Assembly: GCA_026713105.1 (NCBI GenBank)
Contig: JAPOPC010000072.1
Coordinates: 62,001-126,000, forward strand
DNA from: Acidimicrobiaceae bacterium
GTDB taxonomy: Bacteria; Actinomycetota; Acidimicrobiia; Acidimicrobiales; Poriferisodalaceae
Length of the DNA stretch: 64,000 nt
Direction of reading: 5' to 3'
Shown here: positions 3,119 through 7,714 of the stretch, one piece after another
Layout of the letters: the number at the start of each line of letters is the position of its first letter
How positions within the stretch are numbered: the first letter of the stretch is position 1
Program-made: the position numbers and the translations under genes
The notes under the pieces: model-generated
What the model saw: only the letters and a program-made list of their open reading frames with translations
Databases searched by the model: none
Told to the model about the DNA's origin: nothing

Positions 3119-5179
3119 ATGAGCGACACATCCCAGCATCCAGAAGCCACCGATGACGTTCCCGGTGCGGCAGTGCCCACCACTGCGGTGCCCGCACTGC
3201 CTGCCGGGGAGTTCTCCTGGCACCGCCTCATCGGCGTCGACGAACTCGACGTGGGCCGGGTCACGACCGTCACTGTTGAGCGCGAGAGCTTGTGCGTCAC
3301 CCGCACCGAGGCAGGCTTCGGCTGCCTCGCGAACGCATGCCCGCACCAAGGCGGTCCGCTCGGCGAAGGCAGCATCGAGGGCGGCTGGCTGCGTTGCCCG
3401 TGGCACGGCTACGACTACTCGCCGCACGACGGCAAGCCACCGCCGCCATTCGACGACGCACCAGCCGCGTTTCGCACCGAAGTTCGCAGTGACGGTGTCT
3501 ACGTGGCGCTGCCGCTCACCGACCAGCGGATCCGCACTGTGTCTGACCAGCTCGTCGAGACGATGACGGCGTGGGGCGTGGCGTGGGTGTTCGGCATGGT
3601 CGGACACTCGAATCTGGGCTTTGCCGATGCCCTGCGCGTGGCCGAGGCGGACGGCTCGCTGCGCTTCATCGGCGTCCGCCACGAGGGCGCCGCTTCGTTC
3701 GCTGCCACGGCCTACGGCAAGTTGACAGGCGGATTGGCTGCGTGCTTCGCCATCGCCGGGCCGGGCAGCACCAACCTGCTCACGGGGCTCTACGACGCCA
3801 AGATGGATCGAGCGCCGGTGCTCGCGCTCTGCGGTCAGGTGCCCTCGAGCGTGCGGGGCCGAGGCGCCTTTCAGGACACCGACCTGTCAGCGGCGTTCGC
3901 CGATGTCGCCCGGTATTCGGCGACGGTCCAGGCCGGCTCCGATGCGGCAGAACTCATGAACCTGGCCTGCAAGACGGCCCTGGTGGAGCGAGACGTGGCG
4001 CACCTTGTGCTGCCCGACGAGGTGCAGGTGCAGCCGGCGCCCGCCGGCGAGCGCGCTGCCGGTTCGCCGCAGGGCCGCACGGGCGATCGCGGCATCTCGC
4101 CGGCGGCCAGTGCGCTCGACGCGGCGATCGAGGTGCTGTCGGTCTCAGCGCGACCGATGATCATTGTGGGCCACGGCGCCCGCAGCGGCATCGACGACGT
4201 CGTGGCACTGGCCGAAGCGATCGATGCGCCGATCGCCACGACGTTCAAGGGCAAGGGTCTGATCGCCGATCAGCATCCGCTCGCCTGCGGGGTGCTGGGT
4301 CGTTCGGGCACGCCGATCGCCAGCTGGTTCATGAACGAAGCCGACGCTCTGGTGACCTTCGGCGTGTCGTTCGCGAACCACACCGGGATCGCCTCGTACA
4401 AGCCGATCGTCCAGGTGGACTTCGACCCTATGGCGCTCGGACGGTTCCACGCAGTGACAGTGCCGATGCTCGCCGACGTGGGCGTTGGGGCCCGGGCGCT
4501 CGCCGGGGCGCTGCGAGGGCGGGCCGGCACCGGCAGCGCCGCAGCCGAGGTGGCAGCGCGCTGGGACATCTGGCGCGCCGAGAAAGAGCGCCGACAGGTC
4601 GACGACCGAGGAAGCGGGGTGAACTCGGCGATCGTGTTCGAGGCCCTGAGCCGCCTCGTTCCGGCTGACGCCATCATGACCGTGGATGTCGGCAACCACG
4701 CATACTCGTTCGGCCGCTACTTCGAGCCGTGCGGGCAGGCGGTGCTCATGTCGGGCTATCTGGGATCGATCGGGTTCGCGTTTCCGGCCGCCATGGGCTG
4801 CTGGGCCGCGACCCAGCATGGGTCGGGCGCACAGGCGTCCCCTTGGTCAGGCCGAGCGGTGGTGTCGGTGTCGGGCGACGGCGGCTTCGGCCAATACGCC
4901 ATGGAGCTGACCACCGCAGTCAAGTACGGCATGGACATCACTCACGTGCTGCTCAACAACGCCGAGCTGGGCAAGATCTCCAAGGAGCAGCGAGCGGCCG
5001 AACTCGACGTGTGGCAGACGGCGCTGCACAACCCGAGCTTCGCCTCCTTCGCCGAGCTGTGCGGCGCAATGGGCCGCCGAGTGACATCGGCGGACGAGCT
5101 GGACACGGCGCTCAGCGACGCGTTGGCGCACCCGGGCCCGGCCCTGGTGGAAGTGTTGACCGACCCGCTGCTCGTCTGA
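3119..5179 (+). CDS. Rieske [2Fe-2S] domain fused to ThDP-dependent acetolactate-synthase-like enzyme
   Basis: A 686-residue fusion. Residues about 32-132 form a Rieske ferredoxin-like domain with the ligand pattern C74-P-H76 and C93-P-W-H96. Residues about 140-686 are a complete thiamine-diphosphate enzyme of the acetolactate synthase/pyruvate oxidase group: N-terminal Pyr domain with E189 in RHEGAASFAATAYG, a middle domain (about 335-465), and a C-terminal PP domain with GDGGF at 586-590 and NN at 613-614, the metal/ThDP motif. No linker stop or frameshift separates the parts. ATG 3119 follows an AGGGGTGAG ribosome site. A Rieske cluster could feed electrons to or from a 2-oxoacid-derived intermediate, as in oxidoreductive ThDP enzymes (inference). 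It is divergent from the phosphatase/GcvT/OCD operon. The substrate is unknown. Confidence 0.9.
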   Translation: MSDTSQHPEATDDVPGAAVPTTAVPALPAGEFSWHRLIGVDELDVGRVTTVTVERESLCVTRTEAGFGCLANACPHQGGPLGEGSIEGGWLRCPWHGYDYSPHDGKPPPPFDDAPAAFRTEVRSDGVYVALPLTDQRIRTVSDQLVETMTAWGVAWVFGMVGHSNLGFADALRVAEADGSLRFIGVRHEGAASFAATAYGKLTGGLAACFAIAGPGSTNLLTGLYDAKMDRAPVLALCGQVPSSVRGRGAFQDTDLSAAFADVARYSATVQAGSDAAELMNLACKTALVERDVAHLVLPDEVQVQPAPAGERAAGSPQGRTGDRGISPAASALDAAIEVLSVSARPMIIVGHGARSGIDDVVALAEAIDAPIATTFKGKGLIADQHPLACGVLGRSGTPIASWFMNEADALVTFGVSFANHTGIASYKPIVQVDFDPMALGRFHAVTVPMLADVGVGARALAGALRGRAGTGSAAAEVAARWDIWRAEKERRQVDDRGSGVNSAIVFEALSRLVPADAIMTVDVGNHAYSFGRYFEPCGQAVLMSGYLGSIGFAFPAAMGCWAATQHGSGAQASPWSGRAVVSVSGDGGFGQYAMELTTAVKYGMDITHVLLNNAELGKISKEQRAAELDVWQTALHNPSFASFAELCGAMGRRVTSADELDTALSDALAHPGPALVEVLTDPLLV

Positions 5180-5216: not shown

Positions 5217-5903
5217 ATGAATGAGCAAACGGCAGAGGAATCAGCCACAGCAAGCATCGGGCTCGAAGACGCTTACGCAGTCGACGGGCCCGAGGCCAAC
5301 CGGGAGCTGTACGCCTCGTGGGCGGAGACGTACGAGTCGGTCTTCCTTGCCAAGAACGACTACGAGTACCACCAGCATGTGGCAGCAGCGTTCTGCGCCG
5401 CTCAAGGCAATCTCGACGAACTCGACGGGCCCGTGCTCGACGTGGGCTGTGGCACAGGCGTCGTCGGTGCCGAGCTGGCACGGCTCGGCGTTGGAGTGAT
5501 CGACGGCATCGACATCTCGCCCGAGATGCTGGCGAAGGCTGCCGTCAAGAACCACGACGGTCACTCGACCTACCGCTAGCTCCTCGAAGCCGACCTCACC
5601 GAACGGCTCGACCTCGAGGGCGGGTCCTACGCCGGCATCGTGAGCGCGGGCGCGTTCACCCACGGCCATCTCGGCCCCGAATCGGTCAGCGAGCTCCTGC
5701 GTGTGGCGCGCCCCGGTGCGCGCTGTGCCCTGGGCATCAACTCGGCGCATTTCGCCGAAGTCGGCTTCGGCGACTGGCTCGCCGAGCGCGCCGAGGCCGG
5801 CGTGATCAGCGGGCTCAGTTTCGAGATGCGACCCATCTATGGCGGCGCCGACCCTGACGACCCCGACCGGTGGACACGCATCGCCGTCTTCACGGTCGCG
5901 TGA
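5217..5903 (+). pseudogene. Class I SAM methyltransferase interrupted by an in-frame amber codon
   Basis: The first 120 codons encode the start of a class I methyltransferase with the SAM-binding motif VLDVGCGTGVVGAEL and the acidic loop GIDISPEML. The frame then meets TAG at 5577-5579 (context TAC CGC TAG CTC). The same frame continues without a gap for 107 more codons to TGA 5903, encoding the rest of the fold: DLTERLDL, the YAGIVSAGAFTHGHL stretch and a C-terminal RWTRIAVFTVA strand. A single CAG-to-TAG change would explain it. Either the gene is inactivated, the base is an error, or the amber codon is read through; nothing seen favours readthrough. It follows the Rieske-ThDP gene by 37 bases. 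Confidence 0.75.
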
Positions 5904-6973: not shown

Positions 6974-7714
6974 TCAGGTGGTCGAGAGGGAGCTGTGCGA
7001 TCCGATGTGACCGCCCCAGCGGTGAAGACCTCGGCGGTCCTTCCAGCCGTCCTTGCCTTCGGGCCGCTCGGGATGCTCATCGTTCACCACTGCGGTGACC
7101 TTCTCGATCAACGCTTCGGTATCGATCTCGCGGCCGTGCTCTGCAGCGTGCTCGCTGATGGCAGCCACAATCGCATCGACCAGGTCAGACACCTCGACGC
7201 CTTGCGCGGCTGCGATGTCAGCCAGCGTCTCGCCGTCCACCATTCTGTCGCGCAGCGCCTCGGGCTCCAGGCCGAGCAACTCGGCGACTGAGTTCACCGC
7301 AACGCGGTGTCCGAACTTGCCGCGGCGATGATCACAGTCCTCGTGATGCTTCCGGGGTTCGCCGTCATGGTGAGCCCGAGTGGCCTCATCGTGATGATCC
7401 CGGGGTTCGCCGTCATGGTGAGCCCAGATCGCTTCATCGTGATGAACCCGGGGTTCGCCGTCATGGTGAGCCCAGATCGCTCCATCGTGATGAACCCGTG
7501 CGAGGACCTGGCCTACGTTCGTTTGCTGCTGTTCGGTGACACCGCTGGAGTCGCCGCTCTGGGCGCCCGCCGAGCCGATCGTAAAGGTCAGGGCAAGCAC
7601 GCCCGCCATCGCGGCAGCGAGAAGTGCAACCAGCAATCGGCCTCTGCGTCCCCTGACGGGAGTTCGTCTGCGTCGATGATTCTGGATCGGTGCTTCTACT
7701 TCGTTGTCAGCCAT
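6974..7714 (-). CDS. Exported His/Asp-repeat protein of unknown function
   Basis: A 246-residue protein with a long basic n-region (HRRRRTPVRGRRGR), a hydrophobic core and a likely signal-peptidase site after GSAGA (about residues 47-51). Next come three copies of a 16-residue unit built around HHDGEPR and HHDEAIWA, then KHHEDCDHRRGKFGH. The C-terminal half (LGLEPEALRDRMVDGETLA and GVEVSDLVDAIVAAI) resembles a helical repeat seen in other exported actinobacterial proteins. The dense His and Asp residues suggest binding of transition metals (inference). A strong AAAGGAGTG ribosome site precedes ATG 7714. The upstream 160 bases are less GC-rich than the surroundings and hold no gene. Confidence 0.75.
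   Translation of the reverse strand: MADNEVEAPIQNHRRRRTPVRGRRGRLLVALLAAAMAGVLALTFTIGSAGAQSGDSSGVTEQQQTNVGQVLARVHHDGAIWAHHDGEPRVHHDEAIWAHHDGEPRDHHDEATRAHHDGEPRKHHEDCDHRRGKFGHRVAVNSVAELLGLEPEALRDRMVDGETLADIAAAQGVEVSDLVDAIVAAISEHAAEHGREIDTEALIEKVTAVVNDEHPERPEGKDGWKDRRGLHRWGGHIGSHSSLSTT
7354..7497 (-). repeat. 48-bp tandem repeat, three copies, coding for 16-residue His/Asp units
   Basis: Three head-to-tail 48-base units (7354-7401, 7402-7449, 7450-7497). The last two differ by very few bases; the first is more diverged in its second half. The unit is a multiple of three and is translated in frame within the exported His/Asp protein. Confidence 0.95.

Follow-up and report, generated by a model that had tools for sequence, protein, structure and literature searches.

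Known electron acceptors of ThDP oxidases are O2, quinone, lipoamide and ferredoxin. In PFOR/OFOR, an Fe-S cluster receives the electrons of ThDP with no flavin involved, and pyruvate oxidase (POX) uses Phe479 in its redox chemistry. Among Rieske proteins, T4moC and CarAc are soluble electron-transfer ferredoxins that serve as electron donors to oxygenases, and those of the bc1 type carry extra (disulfide) cysteines in their ligand loops. Here we analyzed a gene that joins a Rieske domain to a ThDP enzyme, found in a stretch of 64,000 nucleotides (the window) from an Acidimicrobiaceae bacterium. No description of a Rieske-ThDP or rubredoxin-ThDP fusion was recognized in the open-access literature searched, and the accessible parts of PMC8097209, PMC7176365 and PMC3914697 contain neither fusion.

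A Rieske domain and a ThDP enzyme in one reading frame

The first-pass annotation had described an uninterrupted frame with Rieske ligands (C74-P-H76 and C93-P-W-H96) and ThDP motifs (E189, G586-D-G and N613-N614). All of these were found at those residues, in a frame of 686 aa that is open throughout (table 1). The order claimed for the domains, Rieske followed by TPP_enzyme_N/M/C in one chain, was borne out by Pfam, with each domain scoring above its cut-off (Rieske 51.2 bits against 20.3; TPP_N 109.8, TPP_M 100.5 and TPP_C 104.9 bits). Just these four Pfam families reached E 0.001 or better in the fusion protein; PFOR families were absent, and assignment to the PFOR class was rejected on this ground. 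Elsewhere in the window's genome, six other ThDP-enzyme matches span query residues from 136 on only, and four separate Rieske matches lie at other places.

Table 1. Coordinates of the fusion gene, its domains and residues, and of rubredoxin-bearing neighbor genes. Positions refer to the window except where a locus is named.
Feature	Position	Strand	Basis or remark
Rieske-ThDP fusion gene, 686 aa	3119..5179	+	Single open frame, ATG to TGA; Pfam Rieske + TPP_enzyme_N/M/C
Rieske [2Fe-2S] domain, residues 33-106	3215..3436	+	PF00355, E 1.2e-13
Rieske cluster ligands C74, H76, C93, H96 (CPHQGGPLGEGSIEGGWLRCPWH)	3338..3406	+	Invariant in alignment A1
TPP_enzyme_N, residues 140-256, including catalytic E189	3536..3886	+	PF02776, E 9.2e-32
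H163, at the pyruvate oxidase G35 position	3605..3607	+	Signature residue of Rieske-linked rows
TPP_enzyme_M, central domain, residues 334-460	4118..4498	+	PF00205, E 8.4e-29
Putative FAD-contact segments, residues 393-396, 416-420, D434	4295..4420	+	Alignment with PoxB 251-254, 274-278, D292
TPP_enzyme_C, residues 523-679	4685..5155	+	PF02775, E 4.4e-30
ThDP/Mg motif GDG(586)...NN(613-614)	4874..4960	+	Direct reading of the sequence
K619, at the pyruvate oxidase F479 position	4973..4975	+	Signature residue of Rieske-linked rows
Rubredoxin-Glu_synthase genes	L124 3523-2018; L125 2563-4068		Overlap the end of rubredoxin-ThDP in two genomes

Residues 130-145, where a missed frameshift or stop had been named as a possible flaw of the frame, showed neither. 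In an alignment of 55 sequences with 61-91% identity (A1), the junction residues 139-143 are at least 90% conserved; G586, D587, G589 and N614 are invariant, G588 is conserved in at least 90% and N613 falls below that level.

Comparison of residues 27-133 with solved chains gave T4moC (1vm9) as the closest (E 6e-10, 97 residues), followed by CarAc (1vck). The ligand loops of the fusion, CPHQGG and CPWH, have none of the extra cysteines of the bc1 type, which suggests that its Rieske domain, with the cluster it would carry, is of the low-potential ferredoxin type.

For residues 139-683, the best NCBIfam score was that of the pyruvate oxidase model PRK08611 (359.6 bits, missing the cut-off of 742). 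PRK09124 (301 bits of 792 needed) and spxB (264.1 of 637.85) were likewise missed, indicating that the fusion is not an equivalog of any of the three. Models of acetolactate synthase were also missed (TIGR00118, 259.8 of 538.35 bits; PRK08322, 262.6 of 509), and we rejected this identity because the scores lie below the cut-offs and below that of pyruvate oxidase. The first-pass annotation had compared the fusion with acetolactate synthases; its scores are nearer to pyruvate oxidase, with no curated cut-off reached for either. Among the best-listed solved chains, the nearest relatives of this part were PoxB (3eya; 216 bits with a single sequence, 302 bits with a profile) and POX (1pow), and no chain among the best 60 of 143 or the best 60 of 127 covered the Rieske and ThDP parts together. 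Judged by these relatives, the catalytic part belongs with pyruvate oxidase and PoxB.

Residues E189, F251, Q252 and E623 of the fusion align with E59, F121, Q122 and E483 of Lactobacillus plantarum POX. In a profile alignment to solved chains, H163 is located at POX G35 and K619 at POX F479; chain u26185, which has Trp at residue 479, is presumably the engineered F479W variant. Among 50 dereplicated ThDP rows, H163 and K619, both of which stand at active-site positions, were present in all 35 Rieske-linked rows and in none of the 15 others. From this pair we infer a substrate that differs from plain pyruvate. The Rieske-linked enzymes may thus share one substrate, perhaps with a second negative charge.

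The FAD contacts of PoxB, which we take to be residues 251-254, 274-278 and 292, align with L393-S396, V416-N420 and D434 of the fusion, in a pattern that is similar without being identical in its residues. Invariant among the 55 A1 sequences are G394-T398 (G394, R395, S396, G397 and T398), G415, S417, F418, H421-G423 (H421, T422 and G423) and D434. The location of these invariant residues at the segments aligned with the FAD contacts suggests that the central domain probably binds FAD.

Distribution of the fusion and exchange of its carrier domain

A scan of the genome collection revealed relatives, fused or not, in 377 of 387 candidate stretches, and the best 80 of these 377 were retained. 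Each of the 80 encodes the full fusion in a single open frame (1140-1236 bits with the full fusion profile) and has the Rieske pattern CxHx16CxxH. A stricter pattern that includes GDG was found in 78 of the 80; one locus (L042) has no literal GDG, and two others (L049 and L067) reach the contig end after residue 637-639. Homologs with the same fusion, on whose existence in other genomes the first-pass annotation had made its reading depend, are hence present at every one of these best 80 loci. Between this fusion gene and seven relatives, dN/dS was 0.05-0.20 in the part up to residue 132 and 0.08-0.21 in the rest (residues 133-686); purifying selection acts on both halves of the fusion. The unusual architecture, and nothing else, would suggest a chance read-through or an assembly artefact joining two genes. 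This explanation is refuted by the presence of the fusion at 80 of 80 retained loci (best 80 of 377) in different genomes and by dN/dS values of 0.05-0.21 in both halves, and its probability is negligible.

Bacterial sources among the best 80 relatives include Acidimicrobiia, Nocardioides, a gammaproteobacterium and Candidatus Thiodiazotropha, as well as records labeled Acidobacteria, Myxococcales and Deltaproteobacteria. In a plasmid collection, the fusion was detected on four haloarchaeal plasmids and one Mycobacteroides abscessus plasmid (57-59% identity across 95% of the query), all five records being annotated only as 'thiamine pyrophosphate-binding protein'. Full fusions with a checked Rieske pattern were present in 11 of 396 Actinomycetota genomes, 5 of 398 genomes in the phylum of Thiodiazotropha and 24 of 282 genomes in the phylum that includes G438 (which bears locus L068 and is placed in Myxococcota by the tree tool). 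The fusion is common in the genus of the window's organism (9 of 11 genomes) and scarcer beyond it, occurring in 2 of 26 genomes from the family's other genera and in 5 of 24 further genomes of the order. The fusion is a wide, patchily distributed family across several bacterial phyla and haloarchaea and no one-off, and this patchy spread suggests horizontal transfer.

The carrier in front of the ThDP enzyme varies. In five second-tier genomes among the 396 Actinomycetota, rubredoxin is located in the place of the Rieske domain (G115, G093 and G158 with 513-517 bits, G368 and G376 with 412-414 bits; Pfam was run on two of the five). Four genomes (G092, G103, G554 and G446; Pfam on two) contain the chain CDGSH-Fer4_19-CDGSH-Rieske-ThDP, and at loci L130, L131, L193 and L194 twin CDGSH, Fer4_19, Rieske and the ThDP enzyme lie in one frame of 865-973 codons. 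A separate gene with Fer4_19 and two CDGSH stretches was observed on the opposite strand beside the rubredoxin forms of G376 (contig L125), and one CDGSH protein is encoded by a separate 117-aa frame on another contig of the window's genome.

Phylogenetic trees were built after leaving out rows truncated at locus ends and thinning near-copies. In the ThDP tree (50 rows, rooted by choice on unfused rows), the Rieske-linked rows formed one clade (SH-aLRT 100) with the CDGSH-Rieske rows inside it. Two rubredoxin rows adjoin this clade (SH-aLRT 87) with long branches, which makes the join unsure. Considering this uncertain join and that the rubredoxin forms are without H163 and K619, rubredoxin-ThDP enzymes may use a different substrate. 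Unrelated carriers replace one another at a single site in the ThDP enzyme as well as in the neighbor described below, and this exchange speaks most strongly for electron transfer rather than for a structural or sensing role.

A glutamate-synthase-type neighbor

The recurrent neighbor (the partner) is a protein of ~535 aa with Rieske and Glu_synthase domains (Pfam), of the FMN/[3Fe-4S] protein type, in which glutamate-synthase motifs are retained together with CX5CX4C, the pattern typical of a [3Fe-4S] cluster. Its gene was found on the strand of the fusion at 27 of the best 80 loci (of 377), upstream at 21 and downstream at 6, with start/stop overlap at several of them. Its N-terminus also varies: among 60 distinct rows above 400 bits, pattern typing assigned 45 to Rieske, 6 to a CDGSH pair and 2 to rubredoxin, and left 7 without a type. 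Of the untyped rows, L118-L120 appear by eye to carry a rubredoxin with shorter spacing (L118 has 20.4 bits in Pfam, below the cut-off of 23), and the remaining four begin at the edge of the fetched DNA. In the partner tree, one CDGSH row is nested among Rieske rows. Genomes G368 and G376 have rubredoxin-ThDP followed directly by rubredoxin-Glu_synthase (Pfam on G368). On two of the four haloarchaeal plasmids, Rieske-Glu_synthase lies 1.4 and 4 kb from the fusion; no glutamate-synthase gene was found in two of the four haloarchaeal plasmid stretches. Mercury reductase, DsrE and sulfite exporter genes are further neighbors on these plasmids and indicate no clear function.

One source (PMC5859297) already describes the architecture CDGSH plus Glu_synthase, and lists Fer4_19 and Rieske or Rieske_2 as further domains that accompany CDGSH. 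These CDGSH proteins resemble the present system in that CDGSH plus Glu_synthase is one form of the recurrent neighbor, and differ from it in that the accessible part of that source names no ThDP enzyme and no rubredoxin form.

We analyzed the presence of the partner in 50 hand-picked fusion-bearing genomes or records (48 of the best 80 loci plus two plasmid records, which are not whole genomes). It was detected in 27, inside the fetched flanks in 16 and outside them in 11, and was absent from 23. The six nearest relatives searched (G398-G403) lack it, and it was not found in the window's genome, where the best match scores 258 bits, is limited to partner residues 165-530 and has no Rieske domain. 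Thus, either another acceptor is used in these organisms or the link is looser than proposed.

In Actinomycetota, the partner occurs in 5 of 11 fusion genomes versus 2 of 385 others (Fisher p 1e-7, uncorrected for kinship), a count in which 8 of 15 partner matches (G088, G099, G110, G228, G111, G175, G368 and G376) were excluded for having no N-terminal match. With all 15 kept, the proportions are 5 of 11 versus 10 of 385 (p 2e-5, likewise uncorrected). In Myxococcota, the partner is present in 16 of 24 fusion genomes versus 29 of 258 others (p 4e-9, again without correction for kinship); G446 (418 bits, no N-terminal match) was scored as partner-less there and would raise the count to 17 of 24, and the plain ThDP matches of G456, G500, G525, G597 and G638 were scored as unfused. 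For 13 of the 16 Myxococcota pairs, the two genes share a contig and are at most 3 kb apart. The partner is also found without the fusion, in those 29 Myxococcota and 2 Actinomycetota genomes.

Several other genes were observed near the fusion. Downstream of it in the window (5217-5579, plus strand), a SAM methyltransferase frame has an in-frame stop after 120 aa and continues beyond; this protein has 225-228 aa in the related loci L002, L003, L005 and L007, and the window's copy looks like a decaying gene. The minus strand encodes a protein with tandem HHDGEPR/HHDEA-type repeats and no Pfam match (6977-7714; its repeat at 7341-7498 has a 48-bp unit, and 24 bp in an overlapping row) and also myo-inositol-1-phosphate synthase and cytochrome P450 (7879-10703), which are beside the fusion in L001-L007. 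Neighbors of the GCV_T type, ornithine cyclodeaminase, inositol-phosphate synthase and P450 were clustered among L001-L007 only, the window's own clade, and no inference was therefore drawn from them. In distant lineages, Na+/H+ antiporter-type genes adjoin or lie near the fusion at L027, L033, L070 and L076 (one cluster; Pfam on L076 only), and likewise at L098 and L099. On contig C76 of the window's own genome (L213, 2601-4259 and 5925-7649), 1.7 kb separate a Glu_synthase-type gene, whose product has a hydrophobic stretch at its N-terminus, from the gene of a plain ThDP enzyme; an Fe-S carrier domain was looked for by eye in this pair and none was seen.

Proposed electron route and relation to known systems

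We propose, with a probability of roughly 60%, that the fusion is a POX-type ThDP flavoenzyme that oxidizes a 2-oxoacid and sends the electrons out via FAD and the Rieske domain to an external acceptor. ThDP would attack the 2-oxoacid substrate with release of CO2 (oxidative decarboxylation). The electrons of the ThDP-bound intermediate would pass, probably via the FAD of the central domain, one by one to the N-terminal Rieske ferredoxin domain, which would deliver them to an external acceptor and not to O2 or quinone. For many relatives, we propose that this acceptor is the glutamate-synthase-type FMN/[3Fe-4S] protein encoded beside the fusion, which itself carries a Rieske, CDGSH or rubredoxin domain; another acceptor would act in its stead in the window's genome. 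The first-pass annotation had suggested a ThDP oxidase/decarboxylase that transfers electrons and has a Rieske cluster built in, and this appears to be the best-supported reading, given that the redox ThDP enzymes PoxB and POX are nearest, the Rieske domain is ferredoxin-like and carriers are exchanged.

A more far-reaching version, which we put forward tentatively and consider doubtful, is that fusion and neighbor form a two-protein machine in which ThDP-dependent 2-oxoacid oxidation would directly pay for reductive FMN chemistry, Fe-S to Fe-S, with the carrier modules (Rieske, rubredoxin, CDGSH and Fer4_19) freely exchanged in evolution. The FMN chemistry would turn 2-oxoglutarate and ammonia into glutamate, or be a related amination, and would need neither NAD(P)H nor a free ferredoxin.

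The ThDP part might instead be a non-oxidative carboligase or decarboxylase whose Rieske domain acts as a redox or oxygen sensor, switching the enzyme on and off, or as a structural anchor. Acetolactate synthases and carboligases are indeed close in sequence, and the replacement of POX F479 and G35 by K619 and H163 could mean non-oxidative chemistry. However, oxidases give the best scores, the linked gene encodes a type of redox flavoprotein that has its own carrier domains, and the swap of Rieske and rubredoxin together with the addition of CDGSH and Fer4_19 suits wiring better than sensing, so that we regard such an enzyme as unlikely.

Among oxidative alternatives, a variant without FAD, in which the ThDP-bound radical would pass its electrons directly to the Rieske cluster, has a precedent in the flavin-free transfer of PFOR/OFOR; it is quite unlikely considering that the domain class is POX and not PFOR and that the stretches matching the FAD contacts of PoxB in the alignment contain invariant residues, D434 among them. 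The direction of flow could also be reversed, the Rieske domain supplying the ThDP/FAD center for a reductive or FAD-priming reaction in the way that T4moC and CarAc, its closest solved relatives, supply oxygenases. No recurrent ferredoxin reductase was recognized among the neighbor clusters listed, few of which are annotated, and to our knowledge no POX-type enzyme works reductively, which makes inward flow very unlikely.

If the outward route through FAD and the Rieske domain is correct, a POX-type enzyme equipped with an exchangeable Fe-S carrier would represent a distinct solution in bacteria and haloarchaea, and its frequent pairing with a similarly wired glutamate-synthase-type protein may connect 2-oxoacid oxidation to nitrogen assimilation. 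The fusion points to a little-studied route for draining electrons from 2-oxoacid breakdown and is a defined target for spectroscopy.

Compared with known systems, the Rieske part resembles T4moC and CarAc over the 97 aligned residues, in the same kind of ligand pattern and in having no bc1-type disulfide cysteines in its ligand loops; those ferredoxins are free proteins, whereas the Rieske domain here is joined to an enzyme. With PFOR/OFOR, the fusion would share the oxidation of a 2-oxoacid on ThDP and the export of electrons via Fe-S, but these enzymes belong to another ThDP subfamily, have [4Fe-4S] ferredoxin-type clusters and depend on CoA. Escherichia coli PoxB and L. plantarum POX have the same order of three ThDP-enzyme domains, the catalytic Glu, the Phe-Gln pair, the equivalent of Glu483 and, at the putative FAD contacts, segments of similar pattern. 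The fusion is matched only up to PoxB residue 527, with almost nothing beyond its TPP_C domain, and it differs from POX in having His at position 35 and Lys at 479 (POX numbering), and from both enzymes in its N-terminal Rieske domain.
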